DNA of 64,000 bases from a virus: the IMG/VR virus record IMGVR_UViG_3300047384_000085, positions 1-64,000 of that record; one strand, given 5' to 3'. Under the pieces are notes generated by a model, which saw nothing but the letters and a program-made list of their open reading frames with translations, made no database searches and was not told where the DNA came from. A program made the position numbers and the translations under genes. Positions 1,998 to 60,583 of the stretch are shown here, piece by piece; within the stretch, counting starts at the first letter, position 1; every line of letters starts with the position of its first letter.

Positions 1998-2004
1998 TCT
2001 TCTA

Positions 2005-2011: not shown

Positions 2012-2041
2012 CCTATTATTATTAACACATAGGTAATTAAA

Positions 2042-6846: not shown

Positions 6847-6872
6847 ACACATCAGTATGAGAGGAATATATT

Positions 6873-8812: not shown

Positions 8813-8814
8813 AT

Positions 8815-9486: not shown

Positions 9487-9488
9487 TT

Positions 9489-10241
9489 GTGAAGATTGCA
9501 ATATTAGTAAACGGTCAAATTAGAGGTAAATGGAAAAGAAACATATCCAGAATGCAAGGGAGGTTCCCTGATGCTGATGTATTCACTTCTACTTGGTCAG
9601 GCAAAGGCAATGATAAGATTGTGGACTTTGTACATGATCAACCATCTATAGATTATCATCCAACTTTAGATACTGAACCTGTACCTAAATGGAAGTCCAT
9701 ACAATATAAAAAGAACATGCAACTTGGAACAGATCCACTTTTAAGAAAACAAGCTCAGTATAGAACAATGCAGATTTTGGGGTATGATAGACTTTTAAAT
9801 GAAATTAGTGACGAGTACGACATGTGTGTTCGCATGAGATTCGACACTTATATCTCGTTAGACCCATCGATCGACTGGACAAGTTTGATAAAGAGATCGT
9901 ATGATGAGAATGTTGCTATTGGGTTTGGTTGTAGAGACTCTCGTTGGACACATGGTGTCAATAAGTTACAAGAACTGCCCAGATTTTACCCACCGATTGA
10001 TAAATCAGTTAAGGGAGATGGTATATCAAACACAAATGATTGGGCATACTATATTATGGATCCACTAATAATTCATCCAAGAAAATTATGGGATTCTAAA
10101 AGAGTTTGGGATTTGCATAAAAACAAACAGTTGAGGAACGCTGAGAATGGTTGGTATCAAATACTTAGTGAACCATACGAAGATAGTCATGTGTGTTATT
10201 ACGGTGGCGCACATATTGAAAGATACGTAAGAGGAATTTAA
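9489..10241 (+). CDS. Putative glycosyltransferase-like protein
   Basis: The 250-residue protein starts at GTG two bases after the previous stop. Its N-terminal MKIAILVNGQIRGKWKRNI strand, DVFTSTWSG and YDMCVRMRFD motifs match in order those of the C-terminal half of the protein at 4304. They resemble segments of capsule-type transferases in which R-x-R-x-D binds the donor. A late SNTNDWAYYI segment may be the acceptor side. No donor or acceptor can be named. It may be a free copy of the second module of the 4304 protein. Confidence 0.5.
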   Translation: MKIAILVNGQIRGKWKRNISRMQGRFPDADVFTSTWSGKGNDKIVDFVHDQPSIDYHPTLDTEPVPKWKSIQYKKNMQLGTDPLLRKQAQYRTMQILGYDRLLNEISDEYDMCVRMRFDTYISLDPSIDWTSLIKRSYDENVAIGFGCRDSRWTHGVNKLQELPRFYPPIDKSVKGDGISNTNDWAYYIMDPLIIHPRKLWDSKRVWDLHKNKQLRNAENGWYQILSEPYEDSHVCYYGGAHIERYVRGI

Positions 10242-10242
10242 A

Positions 10243-10950
10243 ATGAAAATAGGTAAATCAGCAGAGATGGCGCAACTTGCGTATCTTGACAGTAAAGAAG
10301 CAAAGAAGGGATTTAAGAAACTCGGATTCACATCACACAAACTCGTTGACATAGATGGCGCACAGGTTCATCTGGTACGCAACAAGGAGAGTATGGCAGT
10401 CTGTTTCCGTGGTACTGAACCATCAGAGATATCGGATGTACTGGCAGACTTGAAGGCATGGCCATCACGAAGTGAGACTGACGGTTGGGTACACTCTGGA
10501 TTTAAAACAGAACTTGACAAAGTATGGGAAGATGTGTTACAATACGTCAACAAGTACAGTGAGTTAGATCTGTATATCTGTGGACATTCGTTAGGTGCTG
10601 CAATGGCAACAATCTGCGCTTCACGATTACCACAGACAAAACATCTGTATACATTCGGTAGTCCACGTGTGGGTACGTGTTCTTTTGTTAAGAACCTGAA
10701 AGTACCACATACGAGATGCGTAAATAATAACGACATCGTGACTAGTGTTCCGTTGGTACTGATGGGTTATAAACATCATGGAGAACTTGTGTATATCAAC
10801 TACTACGGCAACATTCGTAAGATGACATACTGGCAAAGATTCAAGGATGGTTGGAGAGGACGTGGTAAAGCGTTCGCTAAAGGTATGCCGTTTGACGGCG
10901 CATATGATCATAGTATGGTTTACTATGTTCGATACACAAACAAGGTTTAG
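10243..10950 (+). CDS. Class 3 lipase (alpha/beta hydrolase)
   Basis: All lipase-3 landmarks are present in 235 residues: VCFRGTE (oxyanion side) near residue 54, the nucleophile elbow GHSLGAA with Ser116, YTFGSPRVG, NNNDIVTSVP carrying the probable catalytic Asp near 154, and GAYDHSMVYY with the catalytic His near 224. Members hydrolyse ester bonds of acylglycerols or phospholipids. No signal peptide is visible, so it acts in the cytoplasm or is released at lysis, when it could attack host membranes. Deacylation of lipid-linked glycans is another possibility given the neighbours. It sits in the + strand run between a glycan protein and the co-chaperonin. Confidence 0.9.
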   Translation: MKIGKSAEMAQLAYLDSKEAKKGFKKLGFTSHKLVDIDGAQVHLVRNKESMAVCFRGTEPSEISDVLADLKAWPSRSETDGWVHSGFKTELDKVWEDVLQYVNKYSELDLYICGHSLGAAMATICASRLPQTKHLYTFGSPRVGTCSFVKNLKVPHTRCVNNNDIVTSVPLVLMGYKHHGELVYINYYGNIRKMTYWQRFKDGWRGRGKAFAKGMPFDGAYDHSMVYYVRYTNKV

Positions 10951-10956
10951 GATATT

Positions 10957-11220
10957 ATGAGAGTATTAGGTAATAATGTATTAGTGAGTGAACACAAAGC
11001 AGACGAGACTACCTCTGGTGGTATTATCTTGTCTGGTGATATTGCGACAGGAACCAAACCAGCAATAGTTATCGCAACAGGTGATGGTGAGGAAGTCATT
11101 GCAGCTGCGTTGGCACCAAAGGATAAGATCTATCTAGACTGGTCGAAGGCAATGGCGGTCGAGTTAGACGGTCTAAAGTGTGCGGTTGTTGATGTGGAAC
11201 ACGTAAAGTTGATTGCATAA
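10957..11220 (+). CDS. GroES/Cpn10-like co-chaperonin (gp31 analogue)
   Basis: The 87-residue protein begins MRVLGNNVLVSEHK and continues with ADETTSGGIILSG, the mobile loop that binds GroEL in Cpn10 proteins. The C-terminal DVEHVKLIA corresponds to the final strand of GroES. It is about ten residues shorter than GroES. T4 needs its own co-chaperonin, gp31, to fold capsid protein gp23 in host GroEL, and this protein may do the same. It is closer to true Cpn10 than to gp31 by eye, as in other marine phages. It shares a base with the next gene, so the two are probably co-translated. Confidence 0.85.
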   Translation: MRVLGNNVLVSEHKADETTSGGIILSGDIATGTKPAIVIATGDGEEVIAAALAPKDKIYLDWSKAMAVELDGLKCAVVDVEHVKLIA

Positions 11221-11930
11221 TGAAAGCAAGAGTCATCTACGTCAAAGGTCACGAACTTTCTGAAGCGTGTATGCGGAAGACTGTGGACTCGTTAGTCAAG
11301 TACGAATGGGACTACGAAGTCGTGGAGGGGGTGACCCCTGATACTTTAGATGAAGATGAGTTCCCTTGGAAAGATCTTGTTAATGGTAGACTGGCGAGTA
11401 TGAAGGATCATAAGAACCCAGAAGAGAAGAGAAAGTACCGAACCAAAAAATCTTGTTTATTTAATAATCTCAAGTTCGCACAGGATGTTATAGAGAAAAA
11501 TGAATCTATGATTTTCTTAGAACACGATGTCGTGGTTACATCGCCTCCACCAAAAGACGATGGAGTTGAGTATTTTTGTTTTCTAAACATAGATGGGGCA
11601 TTTAAAAAACCGAATGTTCTAGCCAATTATCCACACTTAGTTGATTGGTATAAAGGTCATAGTCATCGGTTAGGAGTTCAAGATTTTCCTTCAAACTATC
11701 CATTACGATACAATAAAGAGAATGATTGGAAGGGTCAAAGTATCACGCCTGGATTAAGTGGTTATATACTGACAGTTGAGGGTGCTAAGATGTTATTAGA
11801 CAAAGTTGAAAAATATGGAATAGAACAGGGAGACTTTACCTTCAATAATCGTGTGATACCAATGCAATACATATATCCAAGTCCGATGAAATTTCAAAAG
11901 GTAAATCCTAATTTAAGTCACAGGTTATAA
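11220..11930 (+). CDS. Putative GT25-like glycosyltransferase (first of three)
   Basis: The 236-residue protein shows a family GT25-type pattern: an N-terminal strand (MKARVIYVKGHE), VEGVTPDTLDEDEF, then SMIFLEHDVVV with an E-x-D donor motif near residue 101, and a TPGLSGYILTVEGAKMLL segment that recurs in related transferases. It is the first of three adjacent genes of this type, likely arisen by duplication and divergence. GT25 enzymes add galactose or glucose to LPS or, in eukaryotes, to hydroxylysine of collagen. Its start overlaps the co-chaperonin stop by one base. Confidence 0.65.
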   Translation: MKARVIYVKGHELSEACMRKTVDSLVKYEWDYEVVEGVTPDTLDEDEFPWKDLVNGRLASMKDHKNPEEKRKYRTKKSCLFNNLKFAQDVIEKNESMIFLEHDVVVTSPPPKDDGVEYFCFLNIDGAFKKPNVLANYPHLVDWYKGHSHRLGVQDFPSNYPLRYNKENDWKGQSITPGLSGYILTVEGAKMLLDKVEKYGIEQGDFTFNNRVIPMQYIYPSPMKFQKVNPNLSHRL

Positions 11931-11931
11931 A

Positions 11932-12645
11932 ATGGCAGACTCATATATTATTAATGTTGAAGGTCAACAACAAGAAGCAGTTAAAAAACTGAAGAAGAGT
12001 ATCAAAGACACTGAAAGTGAATTGAAACCTGAGATACTCCGTGCATCTACACCAGAGACGATGGAACAAGATCTGAAGGATATGATCTGTTTCAACTATA
12101 AAGACTTTAGGTGGAACTGGCCTGTTACCCCTGACGAAGAGGGCCTAGATCTTCAGACAGGAATCTATAAACATGTATATGGCGCAAAGAATCAACTCAA
12201 GGTTATTGCTTGTGCAGTCTCGCACATGAGAGCGTGGGAACAGATTATCATGAACGATCAGGCCGCAGTTATCTTTGAGAGTGATGCGTTACTCACACGT
12301 AAGTTTACTGGTATGCGTAAGGGTTTAAGTTGTGTCGGTTTGTGCGATCCTCGTGGCGCAACACGGAGAGCGCAAGCATTTCATGAGGAAGTTTCTAAGA
12401 GTAATTCTGTGAAGTTCGCCCCTTATGTAAATGACCCTACAGGCCCAAATTATGCACAGGGTTTGGCAGGAGGTTCTGCGTATTGGGTAGAACCCCATAT
12501 GGCAAAAGAGTTCTTAAACAAGATCAAGGAAGTCGGTATGTGGCCTAATGATGCGTTCTTGTGTAGTGCAAACTTTTTGTCTCTTCGTGTTGTATATCCT
12601 TACTATACCAAAGTGCAAGGTGTTGAGTCGAGTACCCAAGGATGA
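11932..12645 (+). CDS. Putative GT25-like glycosyltransferase (second of three)
   Basis: The 237-residue protein has an N-terminal strand (SYIINVEGQ), then ACAVSHMRAWEQII with the conserved S-H-x-x-x-W of GT25 transferases near residue 103, followed by AVIFESDALL, the acidic donor motif. GLAGGSAYWVEPHMAKEFL is the equivalent of the GxxAY segment of the family. It overlaps the next gene by ATGA. Residues 20-35 are Lys/Glu-rich and unlike the other two copies. Confidence 0.7.
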   Translation: MADSYIINVEGQQQEAVKKLKKSIKDTESELKPEILRASTPETMEQDLKDMICFNYKDFRWNWPVTPDEEGLDLQTGIYKHVYGAKNQLKVIACAVSHMRAWEQIIMNDQAAVIFESDALLTRKFTGMRKGLSCVGLCDPRGATRRAQAFHEEVSKSNSVKFAPYVNDPTGPNYAQGLAGGSAYWVEPHMAKEFLNKIKEVGMWPNDAFLCSANFLSLRVVYPYYTKVQGVESSTQG

Positions 12646-13295
12646 TGAAATCTTTTGTAATCACAATCATGGACAATCCACAATCCGTTAAAGTTGCGGA
12701 GAGGTGTATTGAGTCTGGTAAAAAGGTTGGTCATGTCGTAGAGAAGTATCACGCTGTCACTCCGAGATCCGAAGGGTTTATGGATATGGTAGAGAGTGCT
12801 GAACTAAACATTGATCAGTTCTCGTCAAAGTGGTCTAGACCAGAGAATGCATTGGCGTGTTTCCTATCACATATGTCTCTATGGAAATATTCCATATTAA
12901 ACAAATGTGACGTGATGATTCTAGAGCATGATGCGGTATTCACTAACAGTGTTCCCTATATACCGTTCGACAAGTGTGTCACCGTTGGTAAACCTAGTTA
13001 TGGTAAATTCAATACACCACAAACTTGGGGTGTTCAACCTCTAATACAAAAGAGGTACTTCGGTGGCGCACATGCCTATATCGTAAATCCGACTGGTGCT
13101 AAGAAACTATTAGACAATGTGTCAGATCACAGTTGTCCGACCGATGTATACTTACACACAGACACCTTCCCTTGGTTACAGGAGTTCTATCCTTGGCCTG
13201 TGAGTGTAGACGATTCGTTCAGTACCATTCAAGAAGAAGCTGGTTGTATCGCAAAACATAATTATAAGAAAGGTATAGAGTTGATCAAAGCATGA
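12642..13295 (+). CDS. Putative GT25-like glycosyltransferase (third of three)
   Basis: The 217-residue protein contains the clearest GT25 pattern of the trio: CFLSHMSLWKYSI, then DVMILEHDAVF with an E-x-D motif near residue 103, and GGAHAYIVNPTGAKKLL. GT25 enzymes of bacteria act in lipooligosaccharide synthesis. Start at the first of two adjacent ATGs, which overlaps the preceding stop; the next gene again begins by ATGA overlap. The chain of overlaps makes co-translation of the three transferases and the following GT-A protein likely. Confidence 0.75.
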   Translation: MMKSFVITIMDNPQSVKVAERCIESGKKVGHVVEKYHAVTPRSEGFMDMVESAELNIDQFSSKWSRPENALACFLSHMSLWKYSILNKCDVMILEHDAVFTNSVPYIPFDKCVTVGKPSYGKFNTPQTWGVQPLIQKRYFGGAHAYIVNPTGAKKLLDNVSDHSCPTDVYLHTDTFPWLQEFYPWPVSVDDSFSTIQEEAGCIAKHNYKKGIELIKA

Positions 13296-15224: not shown

Positions 15225-16103
15225 ATGAAAACATTTAGCCAGCACCTAACAGAAGAACAAGAACTCCAACAGTATAGTGAGATTCTATTAGAGAAACTCA
15301 TTACGTTCGGAGGTAAAGCATACCCTAAATTTGGTAACGTTGTTATCATGGCGGGGGGTGCTGGTTCTGGTAAAGGATTCGTCCTATCCAACCTAGTTGG
15401 ACTAGAAGGTAAAGTCTTAGACGTTGATGAACTCAAGACTGCCGCCGCAAAGTCACCGTTGATTCGTAAGAGAGTCAAGGCGGAGACTGGAATGGATATC
15501 GAAGCAATCGCATCTGATCTAAAGAATCCAGAGAACGTTGGCAAGTTACACGACATCATTGCGAACGTTCTACAACTGGACACTCGTCAGAAGAAAGTCT
15601 TGATGCGTGGTATCCTTGGTGCTGCTCCTGATCGTAAACCTAATCTTGTTTTCGATACAACTCTGAAAGATCTACAGAAGTTGGGTAACCTATCTCGTAT
15701 GTTGACTAACGTGGGTTACGAGAAAAGAAATATCCATATCGTATGGGTAGTGAACGACATCGAAGTTGCAAAGACACAGAACCTTACTCGTAGTCGTACC
15801 GTTCCCGCTGAGATTCTTGTTAACACACACCGTGGTGCATCACAGACTATGGCGGACATCGTTAACATGGGTAAGACATTGAAAACTTATATGGATGGGG
15901 ATATCGTATTCGCATTCAACAAGGTCGGTGTCGATGCTGATCTTAAAGTATCTGGTGGGGGTGGTTCATTCCTAAAAGATGCGAAATACTTCTACGCAAA
16001 AAGAGCAGGTAAACCACCTACTCCAGTTGCGAGTCTTGATAAGGATATCAAAGCGAAGATATCTAAGTATGTTCCTAAAGCAGTTACTTGGTCTGGTCGT
16101 TAG
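15225..16103 (+). CDS. Zeta-toxin-like P-loop kinase with capsid-targeting peptide
   Basis: The 292-residue protein has a P-loop at about residues 43-51 (MAGGAGSGKG), an acidic motif DVDELK near 68, a second Asp in VFDTTLKDL near 155, and an arginine-rich lid TRSRTVPAEILVNTH near 200. These are features of zeta-toxin-like kinases, some of which phosphorylate UDP-N-acetylglucosamine and block wall synthesis. Its first residues, MKTFSQHLTEE, closely resemble the T4 capsid-targeting sequence MKTYQEFIAE of Alt and the internal proteins, including an L-x-E site for the gp21 protease. It is driven by a late promoter. Packaging into the head and injection with DNA is inference. Confidence 0.7.
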   Translation: MKTFSQHLTEEQELQQYSEILLEKLITFGGKAYPKFGNVVIMAGGAGSGKGFVLSNLVGLEGKVLDVDELKTAAAKSPLIRKRVKAETGMDIEAIASDLKNPENVGKLHDIIANVLQLDTRQKKVLMRGILGAAPDRKPNLVFDTTLKDLQKLGNLSRMLTNVGYEKRNIHIVWVVNDIEVAKTQNLTRSRTVPAEILVNTHRGASQTMADIVNMGKTLKTYMDGDIVFAFNKVGVDADLKVSGGGGSFLKDAKYFYAKRAGKPPTPVASLDKDIKAKISKYVPKAVTWSGR

Positions 16104-19673: not shown

Positions 19674-20039
19674 ATGGCAAAAGTAGTAAAAGCGACAAAG
19701 GGTGATAGTAAAGGCGAACCTATCATTGAAAACGAACAGACTCAATCTGGAGAGGGAATACTTCATCGACATATGTCGCAAAAATTACCAAAACTAAAAC
19801 CAGAAGTTGCTGAGGCGGTAACAGTTGAAGTACTGCGTGGTCTATATGTAGAACATGTCAAGTTCTATGTGAAAAATAAAGACGTGAGTACTGCTGATAA
19901 TTTACTAACTAAAGAAGAAGCTAAACAACATGAAGAAATTCTAAAATCTTTAGAGGGCGCTATCGCTTATTTAGATCAAACTGATCAATGGTTGAAGGAT
20001 TTACATGCAGGAAAATTTAGCGAACCAACTAACGACTGA
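19674..20039 (+). CDS. Hypothetical helical protein
   Basis: The 121-residue product has a basic N-terminus, a polar stretch, then several helices (AVTVEVLRGLYVEHVKFYV and EEILKSLEGAIAYLDQTDQW). No motif is recognised. It overlaps the following oxygenase gene by 35 bases and starts two bases after the previous stop. Confidence 0.55.
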   Translation: MAKVVKATKGDSKGEPIIENEQTQSGEGILHRHMSQKLPKLKPEVAEAVTVEVLRGLYVEHVKFYVKNKDVSTADNLLTKEEAKQHEEILKSLEGAIAYLDQTDQWLKDLHAGKFSEPTND

Positions 20040-20700
20040 AGGTTACGTTGTTTTAAAAAACTTTATTCCAAAGGATATCATCGATATCACTTTAGATAAC
20101 TGGAAATGTTTTGAAAAGAACTCGGATTTGTTTAGGGGTTTTAAATATATTGGTTTTACAGAACGTAGTCTTGGATACGGAAATACGCCAGTAAAATCTT
20201 TGTATAAGAGTGTTGGTAACTACTGTTTCCCGCCCTCTATTTCTATGCATAAGTATTTAAAAAAACGACTGAAGGAAGTCTTAGATTTAGAATTAGAAGA
20301 GACGTATTCCTTTGCAAGAAAATATAAGAGAGATGCTTGGCTAGAATCTCACATAGATAGACCTGACTGTGAGATTAGTGTAACGATGTGTTTGGATTAC
20401 AAATCTGACAACGGAAACCCTTGGAAATTCTGGTTAGGTAAAAAGGGGTCTGAATACAACTTAAAAAAGACTCAGATGAAAACCTTGCAAGAACGTGAAC
20501 AAATTGGGTTTAAATCGCTTGACTTAGGTATAGGAGATGTGTTATTATATCTAGGTGTAGAAGTTCCTCACTGGAGAGACTGTTTTCAAGGGGAATATTC
20601 CTATCATATGTTTTTACATTTCTACGATGTCAATTCTGGCAGAACTAGAGAAGGATATGATGGGCGAAAAAATAGTTACGACATGATTAAAAGTAAATAA
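20005..20700 (+). CDS. 2OG-Fe(II) dioxygenase-like protein
   Basis: The 231-residue protein has the iron triad pattern of 2-oxoglutarate oxygenases: H-x-D in WLESHIDRPDCEISVTM near residue 115, and a distal His in YLGVEVPHWRD near 190. YSYHMFLHFYD follows as the last core strand; the 2OG-binding basic residue is not clear. The fold resembles the group of phage and marine oxygenases near prolyl hydroxylases, which hydroxylate proteins or small molecules. ATG 20005, behind AAGGA, lies within the previous gene. The target could be a protein side chain or a sugar. Confidence 0.7.
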   Translation: MQENLANQLTTEGYVVLKNFIPKDIIDITLDNWKCFEKNSDLFRGFKYIGFTERSLGYGNTPVKSLYKSVGNYCFPPSISMHKYLKKRLKEVLDLELEETYSFARKYKRDAWLESHIDRPDCEISVTMCLDYKSDNGNPWKFWLGKKGSEYNLKKTQMKTLQEREQIGFKSLDLGIGDVLLYLGVEVPHWRDCFQGEYSYHMFLHFYDVNSGRTREGYDGRKNSYDMIKSK

Positions 20701-39071: not shown

Positions 39072-40171
39072 TGAATGTAAATGGACATCACGACAAGACG
39101 TTACATGACTTAGGTCGAAGAGAGTTAAACCTTCGTCACTATAAGGTCGAGGAAGTCTTACCCGATCATATTGTTGCTAGTTATCCGAAGTTAGTATCAC
39201 TGTTGGAAACGTACTTTCAGTTTGAAGACCAAAGTTCGTCACCAACTGATCTTTTGAATGAACTGTTTACGTTAAGAGATATCACACAGACAGACATAGA
39301 TCTGTTGTCTTTTCTTGAAGACGAGTTACTGTTAGGTCAGTCTTACTTCGAAGGATTCCAAGATAAGAGAGAGGCGGCAAAGTACTCTAATACTCTTTAT
39401 AAGTCTAAGGGTACTAAGTATTCGATACAACAGTTTTTTCGTACTTTCTTTGGTATAGACCCAGATGTGGTTTATACTAAGAACAACGTATTTAAACTTA
39501 ATGAGTCTGAAGTAGGCCCATCGTCTCAGAGATATATTACGGACGATAAGTTATATCAAACATATGCAATTCAGGTGAAGAGTGAATTATCCATATCTAA
39601 ATGGAGAGAAATCTATAAACTATTCGTACATCCTGCTGGCATGTACTTGGGTTCTCAGGTACAATTACAGGGCGTAGTTGACATCGACTTCGAAATACAA
39701 CCACCTCCTGGCTTGTTAGATATTCCACCACAAGAAGTGGAATGTATTGCAGATATGCCTCAGTTCGCATTCTCTGCTCACACTGCATTGTTCGATGTCC
39801 CAATGGATCATTTAGGCGGAGACGAAATGGAATTTAGAGCAACTATGGGTAACGCTAACACTGCACCAAATGCTGGTAATGATGTGGGCGATTACGCAGA
39901 TAAAACCATCGATGAGATACATGGACTACAAAGTAACATACTAGAACTACTAGAACCGAACTCACCGACATTCGATGAACATGATGATGACAGTGGTTCG
40001 TCAATGGGTCTATCAAGTCTAGAGACAATAGATCAGGATCAGTGGACTTGGCAGAATCGTATCCGATCTGATGCGAACAATACATACATGCAGAATCACC
40101 CTAAAGGGCCGTCAATAGGCGACTCAGATGGTGAACTAACATTAGAAGAAATTATGAATAGTCTAGATTAA
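39071..40171 (+). CDS. Virion structural protein, probably baseplate wedge
   Basis: The 366-residue protein has an N-terminal domain LPDHIVASYPKLVSLLETYF with AAKYSNTLYKSKGTKYSIQQ and FFRTFFG that I recall from structural proteins of marine T4-like phages. The C-terminal third is acidic and polar with GDSDGELTLEEIMNSLD at the end. In T4 the gene after 6 is 7, but this protein is a third of its size and not clearly related. The one-base overlap with gp6 supports a wedge role. Confidence 0.65.
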   Translation: MNVNGHHDKTLHDLGRRELNLRHYKVEEVLPDHIVASYPKLVSLLETYFQFEDQSSSPTDLLNELFTLRDITQTDIDLLSFLEDELLLGQSYFEGFQDKREAAKYSNTLYKSKGTKYSIQQFFRTFFGIDPDVVYTKNNVFKLNESEVGPSSQRYITDDKLYQTYAIQVKSELSISKWREIYKLFVHPAGMYLGSQVQLQGVVDIDFEIQPPPGLLDIPPQEVECIADMPQFAFSAHTALFDVPMDHLGGDEMEFRATMGNANTAPNAGNDVGDYADKTIDEIHGLQSNILELLEPNSPTFDEHDDDSGSSMGLSSLETIDQDQWTWQNRIRSDANNTYMQNHPKGPSIGDSDGELTLEEIMNSLD

Positions 40172-40187
40172 ACGCTAGGTTAAAACG

Positions 40188-40195
40188 TATAAATA
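40188..40195 (+). promoter_or_regulatory. T4-type late promoter
   Basis: TATAAATA in the 54-base gap before the fibre-like gene at 40226. The leader has TAGGTAAAGG. Confidence 0.85.
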
Positions 40196-40225
40196 GAATC
40201 ATAGAACTTTTAGGTAAAGGTCAAA

Positions 40226-41242
40226 ATGACAAAACAAGTATTAAATAGAGGCACAATTGCAAACGATGGTACAGGAGATACTCTCCGTACTGCTGGTTTG
40301 AAGATCAATGCCAACTTCGATGAGTTATATCAATTTCTTGGTGGGAAGACTGACGGAACACTTTCCACACAGATAGGAATAGAAAATGATGCGGTTGTTT
40401 TTGAAGGAACTTCATCTGATGATTTTGAAGTTAGATTGAAGGCTGCGAACGCAACGGCGGATCGTATTCTTACTCTTCCAAATGCGGATGGTGAATTTGT
40501 ACTTACGGTTGCGACCCAGACATTGACCAATAAGACAATTACCAACCCGACCGTTTCCGATCTAGTAATTACTGACGGTGGTTCTAACCACGAATATTCT
40601 CTAATTGCGTCTGACATAGCTGCGGATAGAAACATAAACTTGCCGGCATTATTAGATAGTGATGAACTTACGTTTAATGACCACACACAGACATTAACAA
40701 ATAAAACTTTAACCTCTCCAACAATTTCTTCACCGAGAGTTAAAGAGGCTATTAGAGATTCTAGTAGTAACGAATTAATTGATTTCTCACCCACAACTAG
40801 TGCAGTCAATCATATACAGGTTGTCAACAACGTTGATGGTTTAAACCCTAGAATCTCTGCGGTGGGTGATAATACCAATATCAACTTAGAGTTATATGGT
40901 AAAGGTACTGGTTCGGTTGCGGTAGAATCTAAACTGACATTAAAAACAGAAGGTATCACCACTAGTGGCGTTACTGTTAGTCTTAATGCACCAATATCAT
41001 ATTTCAATAAAGCTTCAGGTACTAACACTGCCACTTTACCGAATGGTGTAGAAGATGGTGAAGTCAAATATTTAATAAACATAAACCAAACTGGTAGTTA
41101 TACAATTGCTATTACTGGTAACCCATCTGGTGTACAGTCAGTAGTATTACCTCCGAACAAGTCGGTTCAACTGATTTGGGCATCTGTGGGCGGAACACAA
41201 AATTGGTACGTAATTTCAAATAACGGCGCAACGATTTCATAG
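40226..41242 (+). CDS. Fibre- or whisker-like tail protein
   Basis: The 338-residue protein begins with VLNRGTIANDGTGDTLRTAG and LKINANFDELY, an attachment module common at the N-terminus of marine phage tail proteins. It has two copies of the fibre motif TQTLTNKT (about residues 91-95 and 153-157), and ends with a small beta domain (GSYTIAITGNPSGVQSVVLP then NKSVQLIW). These suit a trimeric fibre or short spike attached to the baseplate. The exact T4 counterpart is not clear. Confidence 0.65.
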   Translation: MTKQVLNRGTIANDGTGDTLRTAGLKINANFDELYQFLGGKTDGTLSTQIGIENDAVVFEGTSSDDFEVRLKAANATADRILTLPNADGEFVLTVATQTLTNKTITNPTVSDLVITDGGSNHEYSLIASDIAADRNINLPALLDSDELTFNDHTQTLTNKTLTSPTISSPRVKEAIRDSSSNELIDFSPTTSAVNHIQVVNNVDGLNPRISAVGDNTNINLELYGKGTGSVAVESKLTLKTEGITTSGVTVSLNAPISYFNKASGTNTATLPNGVEDGEVKYLININQTGSYTIAITGNPSGVQSVVLPPNKSVQLIWASVGGTQNWYVISNNGATIS

Positions 41243-51924: not shown

Positions 51925-54882
51925 ATGTCAACAGATTTAATTTTAAAGATTAAAAATGCAAATGGAGATTTGCAACGAGTTTCTTCGGATGAAGAAAAGT
52001 ATCTTGCATCTGTTGCTGGTGTTAGGTTATTGAACTATGAATTTGATGTGGAAACTGTTGGTAATTTAGTTAGAGGTCAGAATAATCTAGGTTACGATTT
52101 TCCGTCAGGTTCATATGCAGACTCAAAATACAATGAAGTTGTGGGTACTCATCCAGAGTCTCACATAACAGCTACTACCACTACAACTAACTTAGACACT
52201 CTTGCTAGTTCTGCTGTTCTGAATTCAACTAATAAACCGTATCTTAGAAACTGGATAACTACCACTGCGGATGTAAATCGACCTTTAGTTTACAAAACAA
52301 TAAATGGTAAACCTAGTCTTCAGGAGATAAAGGATTCGGACTTAAATACTCTTGCAGATAGACTAAATGGTCTTATTGCACAACATGAACTTACTGGAGT
52401 TTATCGACTAGATTCAGCAGGTTTTGATCCTAGTGAAACCAATTGGCGAAGACATGTCGTTGGAAAATTTGGTAGTTTGGACGATAGAAAAATTTTCGCC
52501 ACCGACAACAGGACAGATGGTACTAGTAAAAACTATCATATCTGGCAAAAAACAGGCAGTTTCGATATTGGTCAAACCGACTCGTGTGCAATTGTAGCTT
52601 TAGATAGAGTACTCAGTGGTAACGATGCCGGTGATTTAACTAACACTCCTCCTACTATTAAAACTCTCCCACTGAATCAGTTGGGTCACGTTCTCGGACA
52701 AAGATGTAAGTATCGCCGTGGAATTGAAGGTAATATCGGTACATATCAATTAAGAAGTGATCTTCAAGGCGCACCTGATGCGACAGGAACTTGGAAATCG
52801 GTAGGTAGTGCTTTAGATACTAGAAACACTAAGGAAGATCAATATCATATACACATTAGAGAGTCGGTATTTTCTAGCACATATGTAGGAACTTATACTG
52901 GTGAATATACTGGCGGATACAACAGAATGTATGCTGGTGATTACATTGGTGACTTCATATTAAGTTTTACAGGCGACTTTATAAAAACTTATGTTGGGAA
53001 CTACACTGCTGAGTACGTAGGTAACTACAATAGGGATGTTTCGACAAACTTCGGTGGTAATTATGTTGGTGACTATATTGATAACTATACTGGTAACTAT
53101 ACTGGTCAGTACGCTGGTGATTATTCGGGCAACTTCGTAAGAACCTTTACTGGAGATTATGTTAATGATATACCAAAGAATTTTACCGCTCACCGTTTAA
53201 CAGATTACACCAAAGAGTATACAGGTGCAACTTTCACCGCTAATTATACTGGTGACTATACTGGTAACTATGTTGGTAACTATGCATCCACCTCTGTTAA
53301 GACATATAGCGGAATAGACTATACTGGTAACTACGCATCGATATCATCAACAAAAGATTCTGTTTTTGAGTTTGCGAGTACAAGTGTTGCCAATTATACT
53401 AGCGTAACTAGTACACGAGCTCGTGTCGAACAATACATCGGTAATTATGAAAAGATTAGAACTGGTAACTTTACTGGTAATTATTCACGAAACTTTACTG
53501 GAACTTATACAGGAAACTATATTATAACCTATACTGGTAACTATACTGGTAACTATCACGGTAACTATACTGGTAACTACACATCAACATCGACATTGAC
53601 AGTTGCACAAACATTTACTGACAATCTGGTATTTACAGGTCTAACGACATTCAGTACACGAGTAAGTACAAGAAAAGCATATCCAACCACTAGTCAGAAT
53701 TGGACAAGAACACGAAGTGGTACACCCTTTAGTTATACTGGTAACTACCAAAGAATTTATGTAAGATATTATCCATCGGCTTGGTCAACTGCGCCGATTG
53801 GTGGTGCTACAGGTGTATCAGCACCGCAGTATTATGGTTCCAGAACTAGGAAAAGATATGGCACTGCTGTTGAAAAAACTAGAGATGGTACTCCAACTTA
53901 TGTAGGTAACTATCACGGTCGTGGCGTAAAACAATGGCTTGAATATGCGAACACATATATTGGTGGCGAGTATACGAAAGAAATTGACTATGTCGGTAAT
54001 TTCGATACTGACTATATTGGTAACTTTGCATCGGTTTCGGTTAATTATAAAACTCAGGGTGAGACGGTCGAAGGCTTGTTAGGTGGTTACTCAAACCCAG
54101 ACTCCTATGGATACAACAAATTGCGTAAGCGAAGTATTAGTGTTGACATCAACAAAGATTTCACAGGAAATTACACTTCCGTTACAAGAACTAATGACTT
54201 TACTGGTAACTTTAACAGTATCGTACAAAAACTTAGAGAGGCTACTTTCACAGGTGACTTCGTACAACCATTTACTGGTAACTATGTTGGTGACTACGCA
54301 TCGACTAGAACTATAAACTATACTGGTGACTTTGTTGGTGTATACGCTAGGCCGTTTGTTGGTAACTATACTGGTAACTACAACTCTACTGCGTTAGAAA
54401 CATACATAGGAACTTCAACAAGAGACACCGACTCTATTAAAAATTATACTGGTAATTTTGCTCGTACGTTTGTCGGTAACTTCCAGAGTACTCGAATAAC
54501 TGATTATATTAGTTCTGCTATATACGTTTCGACAAGAGAAAGATCGGTCAATTATGCTTCTACCAGTACATCTAATATATTAAAAGATTTCGTGGGTGAT
54601 TATACAGGTAACTTCATTAGTCAACATCTGTACACAAGTACCAGAAACTATTTACTTCATCGTTCGGTCAACTATATCAATGAAGAAGCTTCAGGTATAA
54701 ATTACACTAGTACAAGTACAAGAGAAAGATACGAAGAGTTTATCGGAACCTATACTGGTGACTATCAAAGAGGTTATACGCAACATCGAAATGTAGACTA
54801 TACTGGTGATTATCTGGGATCTACCATTAGACCAACTTTATCTACACATAGAACATATACTTTATATGTAAGATACAATTAA
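51925..54882 (+). CDS. Tail fibre with Y-T-G-N repeat shaft
   Basis: The 985-residue protein starts with a non-repetitive domain of about 315 residues (MSTDLILKIKNANGDLQRVS). From there to near its end it is dominated by short repeats of the form Y-x-G-N/D-Y/F, for example TGNYTGNYHGNYTGNYT, interspersed with ASTSxxNY and TRxR segments. Tyr, Thr, Gly, Asn and Ser make up most of it. It is followed by a palindromic leader and the next fibre. No receptor-binding tip or chaperone domain is obvious. An extended, tyrosine-rich fibre is the likely structure, but this is inference. Confidence 0.7.
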   Translation: MSTDLILKIKNANGDLQRVSSDEEKYLASVAGVRLLNYEFDVETVGNLVRGQNNLGYDFPSGSYADSKYNEVVGTHPESHITATTTTTNLDTLASSAVLNSTNKPYLRNWITTTADVNRPLVYKTINGKPSLQEIKDSDLNTLADRLNGLIAQHELTGVYRLDSAGFDPSETNWRRHVVGKFGSLDDRKIFATDNRTDGTSKNYHIWQKTGSFDIGQTDSCAIVALDRVLSGNDAGDLTNTPPTIKTLPLNQLGHVLGQRCKYRRGIEGNIGTYQLRSDLQGAPDATGTWKSVGSALDTRNTKEDQYHIHIRESVFSSTYVGTYTGEYTGGYNRMYAGDYIGDFILSFTGDFIKTYVGNYTAEYVGNYNRDVSTNFGGNYVGDYIDNYTGNYTGQYAGDYSGNFVRTFTGDYVNDIPKNFTAHRLTDYTKEYTGATFTANYTGDYTGNYVGNYASTSVKTYSGIDYTGNYASISSTKDSVFEFASTSVANYTSVTSTRARVEQYIGNYEKIRTGNFTGNYSRNFTGTYTGNYIITYTGNYTGNYHGNYTGNYTSTSTLTVAQTFTDNLVFTGLTTFSTRVSTRKAYPTTSQNWTRTRSGTPFSYTGNYQRIYVRYYPSAWSTAPIGGATGVSAPQYYGSRTRKRYGTAVEKTRDGTPTYVGNYHGRGVKQWLEYANTYIGGEYTKEIDYVGNFDTDYIGNFASVSVNYKTQGETVEGLLGGYSNPDSYGYNKLRKRSISVDINKDFTGNYTSVTRTNDFTGNFNSIVQKLREATFTGDFVQPFTGNYVGDYASTRTINYTGDFVGVYARPFVGNYTGNYNSTALETYIGTSTRDTDSIKNYTGNFARTFVGNFQSTRITDYISSAIYVSTRERSVNYASTSTSNILKDFVGDYTGNFISQHLYTSTRNYLLHRSVNYINEEASGINYTSTSTRERYEEFIGTYTGDYQRGYTQHRNVDYTGDYLGSTIRPTLSTHRTYTLYVRYN
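52880..54815 (+). repeat. Degenerate 12-base coding repeat (Y-T-G-N)
   Basis: The unit TATACTGGTAAC and variants recur throughout. A nearly perfect run lies at about 53529-53580 and others near 53087-53115 and 53245-53285. Repeats of this type permit slippage or recombination that changes fibre length in steps of four codons. Confidence 0.8.
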
Positions 54883-55001: not shown

Positions 55002-56471
55002 ATGTCATCCACCATTAAAATCAAACGGAGCAATACGTCTGGTAATGCTCCTGACACCAATAACATTGTAGAAGGCGAACTCGCCCTCAATACCGCAGAT
55101 GGTATCCTATACTCTCGTGGCGGTAATGATATATTTGAAGTAGGCGCAAACTTAACTACTCCATTTACTGTCAACCCATCTACCGCAGCAGACACTATTA
55201 CTCTTGGATCGACTACTCAAGAAGGCACTATCACTCTTGGTAGAAGTACCTCAACCAACTTAATTAACATTGGTAATGCTCAGACAGCAAGTGGTGCAAC
55301 ACAAACGATTAATATCGGTGGTAACAGCGCCAGTGGCGGTGACACTGTATTGAATTTAGCCGCAAATTCAAATACTGCCGCAGATACAGCAGTGACTATT
55401 GGTTGCTCTAATGGAACTGGTACTCACAGTGTTGCGATTCGTGGTGCTAGTACATTTACGAATGGTGCGGTTGCCTTTGATGGTAACAACTTTTCTGTAA
55501 ATCCAGCAGGAACCACTAACACCATCACTATGGGTAAAACAACTGGCACAGGTTTAATTACAATCGGTCGAAGTACCGCTAATCAAGATATATCTATTGG
55601 TTCAGCTACAGGTGGTTCAGGTGCATCCCAAACCACCTCGATTGGGTGCAACATGGGTTCAGGCGGGACAAAGACCGTCAATATCGGTTCTTTAGGTAGT
55701 AGTGCTGGCGCCAGATATATAAATATCGGTACAAACGCAAGCACTAATGGTTTAAGCGCTACGACTACGATTGGTAGTTTACATACAGCTGCAGTGAGCA
55801 ATAATTATCTCTATGGTATTACGAGGATTAAAAAGACCAATGGACAACCTTTAATTGTAGAGAGTACGTCATCTACTACTAATACTACTTTACAAGGTAT
55901 TCAATTATACAATACTACTAGTGCTTCAGCCTTTAAAATCGGCAATTACTTGTCGTTGGCTCAAGTTCAAAGTTATTATGGTTCTGGTTCTGGCGCATCG
56001 ATACAATTTTTATATGGTCAGAGCGGAGAAAAACATCGGTTAGATGCAAGTGGTAAATTTGGGATAGGTGTCTCGTCCCCACTTGAAGCACTTCACGTTA
56101 ATGGTAATATCATTGCTACAGGTAATGTGACTGCATATTACTCTGACGAAAGACTGAAAGACTTTAAGGGAGCAATTCCAGATGCTCTAGATAAAGTTAA
56201 TAAACTCACAGGATATTACTATAAACCAAACGCATTAGCGCATTCTTTGGGTGTGGATAATACCGAACTAGAGGTCGGTGTATCTGCTCAAGAGGTTGAG
56301 GAAGTATTACCTGAGATTGTAACTAAATCTGCGGTAGGTCAAGACGAGTTCGGAGAAGATTATAAAAGTGTTTCTTATGACAAACTAACACCCCTGTTGA
56401 TAGAAGCAGTAAAGGAGTTGACCCAAAAGGTTGCGTATCTAGAATCTAAAATTAGTGAGAAAGGCGAATAA
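55002..56471 (+). CDS. Tail fibre with C-terminal S74 self-cleaving chaperone
   Basis: The 489-residue protein begins with an attachment module (STIKIKRSNTSGNAPDTNNI), followed by a Thr/Gly/Ile-rich shaft of repeats such as TITLGRSTSTNLINIGNAQT. The last ~100 residues are an intramolecular chaperone of the peptidase S74 family: YYSDERLKDFKGAIP with the catalytic Ser-Asp, VSAQEVEEVLPEIV, and YDKLTPLLIEAVKELTQKV. These domains trimerise the fibre and then cut themselves off. The N-terminal module is shared with the protein at 60955. Confidence 0.9.
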   Translation: MSSTIKIKRSNTSGNAPDTNNIVEGELALNTADGILYSRGGNDIFEVGANLTTPFTVNPSTAADTITLGSTTQEGTITLGRSTSTNLINIGNAQTASGATQTINIGGNSASGGDTVLNLAANSNTAADTAVTIGCSNGTGTHSVAIRGASTFTNGAVAFDGNNFSVNPAGTTNTITMGKTTGTGLITIGRSTANQDISIGSATGGSGASQTTSIGCNMGSGGTKTVNIGSLGSSAGARYINIGTNASTNGLSATTTIGSLHTAAVSNNYLYGITRIKKTNGQPLIVESTSSTTNTTLQGIQLYNTTSASAFKIGNYLSLAQVQSYYGSGSGASIQFLYGQSGEKHRLDASGKFGIGVSSPLEALHVNGNIIATGNVTAYYSDERLKDFKGAIPDALDKVNKLTGYYYKPNALAHSLGVDNTELEVGVSAQEVEEVLPEIVTKSAVGQDEFGEDYKSVSYDKLTPLLIEAVKELTQKVAYLESKISEKGE

Positions 56472-56473
56472 TT

Positions 56474-56914
56474 ATGGCAGTAGTTTGGAATATAGTAAAG
56501 GTTGAATCGAATATCTCTGATGGTGCTATCAAAATGGTACATTGGGAAGCTTCAGATTATGAGACGGAACAAGTTGGCGACAAACAGGTAATTCACCGTG
56601 GTAGACGTTATGGCAGTGTTCATATTGATGCAGATCCTTCTTCGGAAAACTACATTGCATGGGCGGATGTCACTAAAGATATTGTAATCGGTTGGGTTAA
56701 ATCTTCGCTCGGAGAGGAAGAAGTTTCAAATACCGAATCGCAAATTGCAGGAGATATTGCTTTATCTAAAACACCTGTCGAACATAACATTAATCCTTGG
56801 GATGTAGTCCCTGAAGTAGACACCAGTGAAGAAGTCGTCAACGATGAGACGCCCGATGAGGAAGAAAATAATGTCGATTCTGATTCGACAGCACACATCA
56901 ATGAAGGTGAATAG
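56474..56914 (+). CDS. Conserved tail-region protein, unknown function
   Basis: The 146-residue protein contains WNIVKVESNISDGAIKMVHW, VHIDADPSSENYIAWADVTK and a segment reading SQIAGDIALSKTPVEHNINPW, which I recall as a conserved small protein of marine phages located near fibre genes. The C-terminal 35 residues are very acidic and probably disordered. It may be a fibre-assembly or attachment protein. It starts two bases after the S74 fibre gene. Confidence 0.6.
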   Translation: MAVVWNIVKVESNISDGAIKMVHWEASDYETEQVGDKQVIHRGRRYGSVHIDADPSSENYIAWADVTKDIVIGWVKSSLGEEEVSNTESQIAGDIALSKTPVEHNINPWDVVPEVDTSEEVVNDETPDEEENNVDSDSTAHINEGE

Positions 56915-56916: not shown

Positions 56917-58179
56917 ATGTCAGCATCTATAATGACGGTTAGAGGTCGTTTACAGGAAGCCGACGAATTTATCTTAGAAAGTGACATAAGATACCAAAAC
57001 GATACGAGTGGGTCTACTGGAACTGGTGTTGGTTTGGTAGTGTATAGTGGTCAAACAATTACTGCTTATGTTAAGACTGTTGGCGTGCCAGGAACTTCCA
57101 CATATCCTCTTATAAACTGTACGGTAGATTCTTTAACTACCTCAACACAGAAATCTACTGGTCATCACTTTAGCATCTTAAAACTTAGTTTCGGTTCGTC
57201 TAGTACTGGTACTTTTCAGTGTTACCTTAGTACATCAGCTAATAAAATTCTTCAGATTAGTGGTTCATACTCCACAGGAACTTCGACCGATGCTGTTCAA
57301 CCAATGACACTCGGAAATGAGTCTGGGTCAAAATTTTACAACAACGTTGGGAATCGTCTTGATGATACTAATGGTGAAACGATAAGACTGAATGACACGG
57401 ACGTGAGAGCAATAGCAGAAGAGACCACAAATTTGTCCACCATCGATTTTGACGACTTTTATGGTAAAGAACGTAACTTGGGCGGAATACCTGTAACCTA
57501 CACTGGCACAAATTCATATACCGACACTGCTATTCCCAGTCATTCTGACCTTGGTGGTACTGGTTCCTCTTCAAGCACAATCACCAATAACCCTTTACTA
57601 TTTGTAAGAAGGGTAAAGTTGACGTATAGTGGTGCATCCGCATCAAAGTATTTGCACATTTCGGCTCAGAGAGCTAATCCTGCGATAGGTTCATATTTTC
57701 ATGGAGATGCTCAAATTTTCGGATATTCTATTAATGGTACGTTTCATGATATTGACACGTTTGGGTCAACTACCAGTACTAATAGTAGTTGGAGAACTAA
57801 GAGTGGCGTCAATCCCACAACTACTGATGCTGATGAATGGCATAATAGTACTGGTGCTGAGATCAATGTTTATCATAACAGAAGTGGTACTGACGGAAGG
57901 TTTACTATATTTCATAGTAATGCTTACAACGTTGGCAGAACTGCCAGTGGTGGCACTGGAAGAATACCTAATCCATTCCTCACTTCTCTAACTGGAGATA
58001 ATATAGGGTACGGATACTTTGAAACCAGTGGTGGGTCGATCGCCTCAATGAGTAGTGTTTACTATCATGCTCGATCACCGCTATTTTATTTAAACGATGG
58101 GGAGACCGTAGAAGTTTGGTATGGAGTGGACTGTGCTTCTTTAGATTTTATTAAGTTTGATATTATCGGTGTTAGTTAG
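56917..58179 (+). CDS. Tail adhesin-like protein
   Basis: The 420-residue protein is rich in Ser, Thr, Gly and Asn with a beta-strand pattern. A middle segment IRLNDTDVRAIAEETTNLST followed by IDFDDFYGKE is a hinge commonly seen in phage tail proteins of marine origin. The final ~230 residues look like a globular beta domain (KYLHISAQRANPAIGSYFHG, GETVEVWYGVDCASLDFIKF). It could be a receptor-binding tip protein. No catalytic motif is seen. Confidence 0.55.
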   Translation: MSASIMTVRGRLQEADEFILESDIRYQNDTSGSTGTGVGLVVYSGQTITAYVKTVGVPGTSTYPLINCTVDSLTTSTQKSTGHHFSILKLSFGSSSTGTFQCYLSTSANKILQISGSYSTGTSTDAVQPMTLGNESGSKFYNNVGNRLDDTNGETIRLNDTDVRAIAEETTNLSTIDFDDFYGKERNLGGIPVTYTGTNSYTDTAIPSHSDLGGTGSSSSTITNNPLLFVRRVKLTYSGASASKYLHISAQRANPAIGSYFHGDAQIFGYSINGTFHDIDTFGSTTSTNSSWRTKSGVNPTTTDADEWHNSTGAEINVYHNRSGTDGRFTIFHSNAYNVGRTASGGTGRIPNPFLTSLTGDNIGYGYFETSGGSIASMSSVYYHARSPLFYLNDGETVEVWYGVDCASLDFIKFDIIGVS

Positions 58180-58227: not shown

Positions 58228-58710
58228 ATGAGTAGTAGAAAATGGTTAGATAATGCTTTTTGGGAAGCACCAGAAACCAAAGATGACGTGACTTGCATTC
58301 TGCAAATCATTGACGACAATGACAGAAAAGTCGAACAAGTAATGAGACTTAAAAAGTTCACTAAATCTGGAAATGAAAATACAGATTTCGCAGAACTTAT
58401 TGAAGTTCTTGGTGAAGACCTAATCACCAAAAATACTGAACAACGTCTAAAACGCAAAGCTGCTGAGAAAGAAGAGAAACGAGTTCGTGATATCGAACAC
58501 GAGAAAGCACGTGCCTTAGAAAAACTTTTCGGATATAAAATGGAAGCATTCGAAGTTGAAGAAATTAAGAAATGTAAAAACCGAAAACTAAAGGCAAAAC
58601 TTAGACGAGCAAAAAGTAAAATTGAAGTCAATCTATATTCGATGATGATTCTTCAAGAACATATTGCTAATGAGGAGAAAGAGAATGCCGAAGAAGAAAC
58701 AGAAAAGTAA
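58228..58710 (+). CDS. Charged helical protein, possible tail-fibre chaperone
   Basis: The 160-residue protein is mainly charged helix (KRKAAEKEEKRVRDIEHEKA) with a Cys in the EEIKKCKNRKLKAKLRRAKS stretch, and is likely coiled-coil. AGGAGATTGAG precedes the ATG. Position after the adhesin genes suggests an assembly factor, as with small fibre chaperones in other T4-like phages, but nothing proves it. It overlaps the next transferase gene by 26 bases. Confidence 0.55.
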   Translation: MSSRKWLDNAFWEAPETKDDVTCILQIIDDNDRKVEQVMRLKKFTKSGNENTDFAELIEVLGEDLITKNTEQRLKRKAAEKEEKRVRDIEHEKARALEKLFGYKMEAFEVEEIKKCKNRKLKAKLRRAKSKIEVNLYSMMILQEHIANEEKENAEEETEK

Positions 58711-59449
58711 AGGATTTCTGGTTGTTGCTTCTCGCAAAAGATCTTTCTATGTTTACGCAACCAATCTAATAGATTCGATTAGAGATTACTATGAAGACGC
58801 TAATATAACCTTAGTGTGTGAAGAGTGGATGTTGGATGACACTGGAAGAGATTTAGCGGACAATATAATAATTTGTGATGATCATTACCGTGCCAAACTC
58901 TGGGGCATGGCTCAATCTCCTTATGACATCACGATGTATGTTGACGCTGACATGCAGTGCGAACACGAAGATGTCGTAAAGATCTGGGATGAAATGAAAG
59001 ACCACGATGTTGTTTTCTCTGCATTGACAAAAGAACGTGATTACATTTACGCTGAATATGAATTTGACACTCCAGATCAAGGAAAGATATCTTTTGATCT
59101 GTGTGGTGGTGTCTGTCTTTACGATATGACTAAACCTATTGTCCGTGAGTTCATGGAAGATTGGTGGGATCTCACCAGAAGGCAAATGGATCATAAATGG
59201 TGGCCCGAAGGTTACCCAAAAAGTCTTAAACAGTGGGATCAATTCTCTCTTTGGTGGTTGACGAACAAAGAAGAAAAATATAAAGATTTGAAGATTGGTA
59301 TATTTGATGATGATATGAGATGGAATTATTATAATGCTTGGAACTACGAAATTACTAAACCAGATAACCCTATTATTTTAAGACATTTTTCTTGTGGTGT
59401 TTTCAAAGATTTTCATTACTATACAGATATAGGAAGTAATGAGAGGTAA
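58685..59449 (+). CDS. Putative GT-A glycosyltransferase in fibre cluster
   Basis: ATG 58685, behind GAGGAGAAAGAG, is preferred to an upstream in-frame ATG. The 254-residue protein has a basic start, a strand (GFLVVASRKRSFYVYATNLI), AQSPYDITMYVDADMQCEHE with a D-x-D near residue 84, DLCGGVCLYDMTKPIV, and W-D-Q-F near 185, a GT8-like arrangement. Its place among fibre genes, far from the other transferases, suggests that its substrate may be a fibre or baseplate protein. Inference only. Confidence 0.65.
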   Translation: MPKKKQKSKGFLVVASRKRSFYVYATNLIDSIRDYYEDANITLVCEEWMLDDTGRDLADNIIICDDHYRAKLWGMAQSPYDITMYVDADMQCEHEDVVKIWDEMKDHDVVFSALTKERDYIYAEYEFDTPDQGKISFDLCGGVCLYDMTKPIVREFMEDWWDLTRRQMDHKWWPEGYPKSLKQWDQFSLWWLTNKEEKYKDLKIGIFDDDMRWNYYNAWNYEITKPDNPIILRHFSCGVFKDFHYYTDIGSNER

Positions 59450-59456
59450 TATTATT

Positions 59457-60173
59457 ATGGATTTTCAAAAAATGCGAAGCATACCAATAAAGAATAAAGA
59501 ACTTCTCTCTATCTTAGACAGTTTTGTTCGTGTTAGGACATATAACGAGGAAGCGTTCACGAAGTACATGCATTGTGCAGGCAATCAACATTCTGATGCT
59601 GATAAGGCGAAATTTGTTTCTGATGAATACCTTCACGAAATCATGAGTATGGGAGATGATCATGGTGGTTTCCCAGAGACTATGCACGGTTATGAAATGA
59701 GAATGTGTAACAGGGAACACCAATTCTTCAAGAGAACAATACCGAAAACTCCTGATGAGATTAGTTATAGATCGGAGGTAATGTCAAAATTACAAGACTC
59801 TCAAGAAGATATAATGACTTGGTTGGGTTGTAGAAATAATGCATTATCAGCAGTTTATCCACCAAGTGGGTTTATCTCTTGGCACAATAATGCAAATGCA
59901 GCTGCATGGAATTTAATTTTCACTTACAGCGAAACAGGTGATGGTTACTTCAAATATTGGGACACGGAAAAGAAAGAAATTGTTTACATGCATGATGAAC
60001 CAGGCTGGCAATGCAAAGCTGGATACTTTGGTCATTATGGAGAACCCGATAAACTTTTATATCACGCAGCCGCTTCTAAGTGTTGGAGACATACAGTTTC
60101 TTTTTGTTTTGATAGATCAGAAACAAGTGAATTTATTAGAGAAGAGATAATTGATGAAATTAGTTCAGAATAA
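59457..60173 (+). CDS. Possible 2OG-Fe(II) oxygenase-like protein
   Basis: ATG 59457 follows AGAGG at a normal distance; ATG 59439 overlaps the previous gene and is less likely. The 238-residue protein has YPPSGFISWHNNANAAAWNL near residue 130, FTYSETGDGYFKYWD, and CWRHTVSFCFDRS near 215. This recalls a marine phage family sometimes annotated as 2OG oxygenases, where a H-x-D and a late H bind iron. Here the first pair reads H-N-N, so the iron site is questionable. It may act with the transferase just upstream. Confidence 0.45.
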   Translation: MDFQKMRSIPIKNKELLSILDSFVRVRTYNEEAFTKYMHCAGNQHSDADKAKFVSDEYLHEIMSMGDDHGGFPETMHGYEMRMCNREHQFFKRTIPKTPDEISYRSEVMSKLQDSQEDIMTWLGCRNNALSAVYPPSGFISWHNNANAAAWNLIFTYSETGDGYFKYWDTEKKEIVYMHDEPGWQCKAGYFGHYGEPDKLLYHAAASKCWRHTVSFCFDRSETSEFIREEIIDEISSE

Positions 60174-60226: not shown

Positions 60227-60583
60227 ATGGCAGATTACGAAGATTTTTCAATCGATCAAGGTGCAGATGTTGCAATAGAATTACATCTCAAGGATCCTGA
60301 TGGTTCAGTAAAAGACCTTACAGGTTTTTCAGTTATAGCTATGATGAAGAGAACATATAACTCAGGTGCAGAAGACACAATTGAGTTTGCATGTTCTATA
60401 GAAGAACCTGCTTCTGATGGTGTAGTCATTTTGGGTTTGACTAATCAACAAACAGACAGTCTAAATACTACTGGTAGGTACGTTTATGATGTTGAATTAC
60501 ACTTTATTGATGGAGAAGAAAATACTATTATCGAACGTATCTTAGAAGGTAAAATAAAAGTCAATCCATCGGTAACTAGGTAG
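60227..60583 (+). CDS. Conserved small structural protein
   Basis: The 118-residue beta-rich protein begins ADYEDFSIDQGADVAIELHL and continues LKDPDGSVKDLTGFSVIAMM, ending RYVYDVELHFIDGEENTIIE with a RILEG strand. I recall such proteins as widespread in marine T4-like phages close to neck and fibre genes, and they resemble baseplate adaptor domains. It follows a late promoter. The specific role is unknown. Confidence 0.65.
   Translation: MADYEDFSIDQGADVAIELHLKDPDGSVKDLTGFSVIAMMKRTYNSGAEDTIEFACSIEEPASDGVVILGLTNQQTDSLNTTGRYVYDVELHFIDGEENTIIERILEGKIKVNPSVTR

Follow-up and report, generated by a model that had tools for sequence, protein, structure and literature searches.

Joint hydroxylation and glycosylation of a protein is known from the Skp1 system of protists and from collagen (LH/COLGALT), in which a PHD-like hydroxylase and glycosyltransferases (GTs) act on one protein (PMC8724618). 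Known transferases of the glycogenin/Gat1 type, Gat1 being the Skp1 galactosyltransferase, act on proteins or on protein-bound glycan (PMC8724618). Among enzymes with the 2-oxoglutarate (2OG) oxygenase fold, AspH (motif HxG...H) works with two His ligands only (PMC8252765). Marine T4-like phages contain GT-rich host recognition clusters, with GT8 as the commonest GT family; in pelagimyophages and cyanophages these clusters, with their GT and fibre genes, are located between the baseplate genes and the neck genes, and the GT8 genes of the pelagimyophage cluster have been proposed to change host LPS and block superinfection (PMC7029224).

The window analysed here (64,000 nucleotides; positions 1 to 64,000 of the virus record IMGVR_UViG_3300047384_000085) likewise carries a transferase gene (GT) and an oxygenase-like gene (OXY) in a fibre cluster. 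The pair resembles the Skp1 and collagen systems in its combination of enzyme types; however, the order of steps is proven in those systems, whereas the phage genes are joined by linkage and folds only, and GT25 is probably not the relevant transferase here. The best explanation of the locus, a tentative one, is that GT and OXY form a cassette dedicated to modifying the adjacent giant tail fibre.

Gene order and linkage to one fibre type

The initial annotation had placed a transferase and an oxygenase-like gene at 58685-60173 within the fibre cluster. Both ORFs lie there (Table 1), and their conservation over many contigs rules out a chance origin. The GT ATG (58685) is inside the end of a conserved gene, ORF160, and the GT stop (59449) is past the OXY start (59439); thus, ORF160, GT and OXY are three overlapping genes. 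Downstream of the fibre-assembly protein are a structural/fibre protein and then a neck-type protein, so labelled by synteny with phage C48C1. In the clade of the window, the S74-chaperone fibre, DUF7936 and adhesin-like genes are an insertion that separates the repeat fibre from the cassette. ORF160 has no useful match in Pfam or PHROGs and is a possible adaptor or fibre chaperone.

Table 1. Features of the fibre-linked locus (window coordinates)
Feature	Position	Strand	Remarks
Giant repeat fibre	51925-54882	+	985 aa; proposed substrate
S74-chaperone fibre	55002-56471	+	Peptidase_S74, 1.3e-10
DUF7936 protein	56474-56914	+	DUF7936, 2.8e-19
Adhesin-like protein	56917-58179	+	420 aa
ORF160	58228-58710	+	160-aa conserved gene; N-terminal domain and charged helical C-terminal part
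GT, GT8/glycogenin-like GT-A glycosyltransferase	58685-59449	+	ATG start; 254 aa; fold from model
GT, DxD codons	58943-58951	+
GT, C-terminal His codon	59384-59386	+	motif RH[FY]S..K
OXY, DSBH (2OG-oxygenase fold) protein	59439-60173	+	244 aa; HxN...H...R
OXY, H149 codon	59883-59885	+
OXY, N151 codon	59889-59891	+
OXY, H209 codon	60063-60065	+
OXY, R217 codon	60087-60089	+
'L-shaped tail fibre assembly' protein	60227-60583	+	phrog_1084, phrog_3304

About 290 loci were fetched from contigs that partly overlap and are related; the first two locus sets contain 79 distinct OXY sequences, and identity to the window protein falls as low as 37%. GT and OXY overlap or stand back to back after ORF160 in nearly all of the approximately 290 loci. 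The order ORF160-GT-OXY-assembly protein is present in 157 of 165 loci, ORF160 precedes GT in 160 of the 164 loci with GT, and the gene for the fibre-assembly protein comes after the pair at 160 of the 165 loci. Where both genes are present (163 loci), they overlap or are at most 50 bases apart in all but 2. A homologous repeat fibre is encoded upstream in all 130 loci with enough flank; it directly adjoins ORF160 in 121 of these, and other genes intervene in 9, among which is the window arrangement.

The association also holds in the reverse direction. Of 80 loci fetched by ORF160, 77 contain GT and OXY and 3 have a contig end inside GT. The fibre N-terminus retrieved 79 loci, of which 55 contain all the genes and 2 are cut in GT; the contig ends before the cassette in 21 of the other 22, and the last (L249) stops at the flank limit, its contig being complete (L170). 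No fibre of the aromatic-repeat type demonstrably without the pair was found among loci long enough to judge. In a mirror-tree comparison (16 loci), the GT-OXY distance correlation was no better than that with neck or assembly genes (0.70-0.88), so the association may stem from descent within a single phage lineage and not from function.

In a set of 50,697 phage records, C48C1 (Kyanoviridae) alone had matches to the fibre, ORF160, GT and OXY; the assembly protein was found in 79 records otherwise lacking the cassette. C48C1 is the only isolate in which the fixed set of GT, HxN protein (Asn in place of the Asp of the HxD motif) and aromatic-repeat fibre was found, which sets this locus apart from the pelagimyophage and cyanophage clusters. 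The cassette carriers are widespread uncultured marine phages, and each of nine large relatives encodes a single GT along with two or three copies of OXY. Searches of cellular genomes gave two matches only, one to a Bdellovibrionales MAG contig and one to a phage contig that had been placed in a MAG bin. L324 is a near-intact relative of the window phage binned in a Sphingobacteriales MAG, which may be a hint of the host or a binning error. The Bdellovibrionales contig (L325:2315-4391) encodes, side by side, an HxN homolog, a protein resembling that of ORF160 and a DUF6445 protein, adjoined on the opposite strand by a secreted-looking protein with GGSAWHPPGSNSTFYSN repeats; it is possibly a related bacterial repeat-protein system.

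Folds and active sites of the two proteins

Sequence libraries are nearly silent on the pair. PHROGs contained no match for the GT or OXY protein singly, and the family alignments hit scattered PHROG families only, one member matching a 2OG PHROG at 8.5e-4. Pfam and PHROGs gave nothing relevant for OXY, neither library holds an adequate model for GT or OXY, and single and profile sequence searches of the PDB returned nothing meaningful for either protein. Such libraries alone are therefore insufficient to confirm the two enzymes; the folds are confirmed by AlphaFold2 models.

The GT model (mean pLDDT 91; alignment of 46 homologs) has a GT8/glycogenin-type GT-A fold, which bears out the earlier description of the 58685 product as a GT-A protein. 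Its closest structure is glycogenin-1 (3t7n; Z 17.6, 190 residues, rmsd 3.6), followed by the Skp1 galactosyltransferase (6mw5; Z 15.5) and then LARGE1, LgtC and UGGT; the best 27 matches of the fold search are all glycogenins. Residues D79 and D81 of the DxD motif and the C-terminal H226 and K233 (P0001 numbering) are invariant in the 46 sequences. The His-to-Lys spacing is 7 in the phage proteins and 6 in glycogenin. The phage GT thus has the fold, DxD and C-terminal His in common with glycogenin and Gat1 (CAZy GT8), but it is phage-encoded, is 246 aa long (254 aa for the window ORF), is only 13-15% identical to them and has no Pfam GT8 match above cut-off. It is called GT8-like because PF01501 matched none of the 46 members; PF01755 also matched none at E 0.1, and the single Pfam match was to PF00535 (Glycos_transf_2), below cut-off. 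All GT25 matches in the window genome fall within a separate glycan island and do not include 58685; no GT25 structure is among the fold matches listed, an absence that excludes nothing. As judged from its model, the 58685 gene probably encodes a GT8-type (glycogenin-like) enzyme and not a GT25.

A role for the pair in altering the O-chain polysaccharide on the host surface, with a block to superinfection as one example, would agree with the clusters of marine T4-like phages, in which GT8 is the commonest GT family (PMC7029224), and with the match of the LPS galactosyltransferase LgtC to the GT model (Z 14.7). It is nevertheless improbable, since the GT model is matched best by glycogenins, which act on proteins, and since the pair is tied to one fibre type and ORF160 in every judgeable locus, while the glycan island (GT25, GT8) is variable.

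The OXY model (mean pLDDT 94; alignment of 48 homologs) is closest to PHD2 (3oui; Z 11.2, 152 residues, rmsd 3.6). Other matches are the prolyl hydroxylase P4H of P. putida (Z 10.4), the Dictyostelium PHD (Z 10.1), the radical halogenases HalA and BesD (Z 9.3-9.7) and the collagen prolyl hydroxylase of PBCV-1 (5c5t; Z 9.4). Many 2OG oxygenases match at Z 9-11, which identifies the fold as the double-stranded beta-helix (DSBH). Individual Foldseek matches have modest TM-scores, and at least 100 2OG-oxygenase chains agree, with Z above the level of an unmatched model. H149, N151, H209 and R217 are invariant in the 48 sequences. In the model, H149 is at a strand end and is followed by N151, and H209 and R217 are on the last strands, as in the HxD...H...R arrangement of the superfamily; R217, which opens the next strand eight residues past H209, occupies the position of the distal Arg for the 2OG C5 carboxylate. 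The two His residues are 60 residues apart in OXY and 61 in PHD2.

OXY lacks the HxD/E...H facial triad: all full-length members examined, including paralogs, have HxN...H. The distinct full-length homologs have the motif WH[NTS]N; in the paralogs read, the Bdellovibrionales MAG copy among them, it is WH[NT]N. Thus, the substitution is a family trait and not a local mutation. Of the possible oxygenase originally proposed at 59439, the modelled fold stands and the canonical motif does not; with Asn at the ligand position in every full-length homolog, hydroxylase activity is not to be assumed. Literature searches found no HxN precedent in the 2OG superfamily and no report on the cassette.

OXY has the DSBH fold, both His positions and the distal Arg position in common with PHD2, the Dictyostelium PHD and the PBCV-1 enzyme, all protein-modifying relatives. 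It differs from PHD-type hydroxylases in the replacement of the iron-ligand Asp by Asn, in its low identity (about 10%) and in candidate repeats that are nearly Pro-free. AspH and the halogenases BesD and HalA are 2OG-fold enzymes active without a carboxylate ligand (PMC8252765), and the same position is carboxylate-free in OXY; they have Gly (or Ala) there, whereas the phage protein has Asn, a residue that would give a halide less space and may be a metal ligand itself.

The universal Asn, together with the location of OXY after the gene of a possible chaperone (ORF160) and before that of a fibre-assembly protein, would also suit a scheme in which GT alone glycosylates the fibre, while the DSBH protein, a pseudo-oxygenase, binds the repeat peptides as a fibre-assembly factor. 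This scheme is unlikely: AspH is functional with its two His ligands only (PMC8252765), and a pure scaffold would have no need of the iron/2OG-type His pair and Arg, whose strict retention argues against simple decay.

Most large relatives encode two further HxN paralogs without a GT (L337-L354; L008:18267-18920 and 40130-40804). One (paralog B) has a tail-tube or structural gene on one side and a UvsY-like gene on the other, and the other is beside a NifU-like gene in C48C1 and G002 (L350). Cyanophage Syn9 gp141, a canonical WHVD oxygenase encoded beside UvsY, aligned with the OXY family over the YPxGGFxxWH stretch only (E 5e-4, single comparison). Because of this common stretch and the UvsY neighbourhood of one paralog, the family may derive from a canonical HxD ancestor. 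A repair role has been proposed for gp141 (PMC2984593). Its resemblance in neighbourhood to paralog B, and the presence of AlkB structures among the Foldseek matches of OXY, could indicate that the family has its target in DNA or elsewhere outside the virion (AlkB-like repair, base modification), the GT neighbourhood being incidental. Such a target is highly improbable, because prolyl hydroxylases outrank AlkB in the structure matches and because the fibre-linked OXY is orthologous across the module and was never seen apart from GT and fibre.

The repeat fibre and its proposed modification

The window fibre consists of a conserved N-terminal region of about 300 aa followed by [YF]-[TV]-G-[ND] tetrapeptide repeats and ends in TYTLYVRYN. 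It contains 43 repeat units, against a mean of 0.37 in shuffled sequences, and its aromatics are enriched 3.3-fold at lag 4 and 3.0-fold at lag 8. Across phages the general unit is [YF]-x-[GR]-[ND]. In 130 fibre ORFs, Tyr and Phe share the first position at 57:43, the second is A, T, V or S, the third is G (70%) or R (20%) and the fourth is N (44%) or D (22%); at lag 4 the enrichment of aromatics is 2.2-4.2-fold.

The pair had been suggested to hydroxylate and then glycosylate fibre residues as on collagen. The repeat regions of the 130 ORFs contain 0.9% Pro and 0.4% Lys and are thus not a repetitive substrate rich in these residues, which makes collagen-type Hyp/Hyl chemistry on the fibre unlikely. 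Modification of Asn/Asp, Thr/Ser or Tyr is more plausible than that of Pro or Lys. Tyr as the sole acceptor, an idea taken from glycogenin, was downgraded because Phe freely replaces it.

The fibre of cyanophage P-TIM68 (L356:4074-6959), a phage without the cassette, was considered as a counter-example and dropped because its [VL]TGN repeats have no aromatics (zero aromatic-unit matches); it is seemingly an aliphatic counterpart of the aromatic repeats. The exchange of Phe for Tyr and the presence of V/L at the same position in the P-TIM68 fibre hint that the aromatic side chain packs inside, which would leave Thr/Ser and Asn/Asp exposed.

A wider pathway had also been envisaged, joining the oxygenases at 20005 and 21703 and GT25-like enzymes to the pair. 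These genes exist: 21703 matches PF13640 (E=2.7e-11), 20005-20700 has PHROG matches only, to families labelled ferrochelatase, and GT25-like genes lie in the island at 11220-13295 and 4304-6040. Both oxygenase ORFs carry HxD, and the 20005 family, with HxD...H, reads like a 2OG oxygenase despite its label. In profile comparison, the OXY family showed no relation to either. The fibre pair is present in all nine large relatives, GT25 in five, 21703 in three (one of these matches being weak, with E 6.5e-4 and an internal stop) and 20005 in none. As they are not conserved with the pair, there is no reason to place 20005, 21703 and GT25 in its pathway, and they may have other jobs. The glycan island (window 442-13295) also encodes a GT8 (6037), several GT25, a radical SAM/SPASM protein (3355), a HAD-nucleotidyltransferase fusion (7451) and a class 3 lipase (10243); at 15225-16103 is a zeta-toxin-like P-loop kinase (PF06414, 1.4e-8).

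A GT fold of protein-modifying type beside a 2OG fold, paired with one repeat fibre, makes modification of a virion protein plausible. Catalysis, substrate, sugar and step order are putative in the mechanism proposed for the cassette. The overlapping ORF160, GT and OXY would probably be co-translated late with the fibre. GT would transfer a sugar from a nucleotide-sugar donor (with Mn) to side-chain hydroxyls of the repeats, either Thr/Ser, Tyr or a hydroxyl made by its partner. OXY would most likely bind metal and 2-oxoglutarate through His-Asn-His and Arg (using Fe and 2OG, provided that the HxN site is functional) and would oxidise a repeat residue, with the Asn/Asp at repeat position 4 as a first guess and Tyr or Thr as alternatives. 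Hydroxylation first would be only one possible order. The specific scheme in which the HxN family oxidises Asn/Asp, Thr or Tyr along the fibre and the glycogenin-like GT then glycosylates the new or neighbouring hydroxyls is itself doubtful. Besides the mirror-tree result, several observations count against the cassette reading as a whole: Asn replaces the carboxylate ligand in OXY, the Tyr/Phe exchange means that the Tyr hydroxyl is not obviously needed, and two OXY paralogs per genome have no GT.

The pair is phage-specific and fibre-linked and includes an atypical HxN oxygenase-like family, and its function is one that we infer. With three paralogs in most near-complete members, the OXY family would offer a natural HxN metal site to a 2OG field that has mutants only. 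Should the cassette reading be wrong, OXY would be a clear pseudo-oxygenase with its remaining active site intact. If it is true, the locus would encode a system that hydroxylates and glycosylates a phage fibre, its metal site being one for which no description was found in the superfamily, and the aromatic repeat fibres would be a modified biomaterial. An abundant marine phage lineage would then use two enzymes to tailor its host-contact fibre chemically, and the reading of fibre specificity, of ageing and of evasion of co-evolving hosts from sequence would change accordingly.
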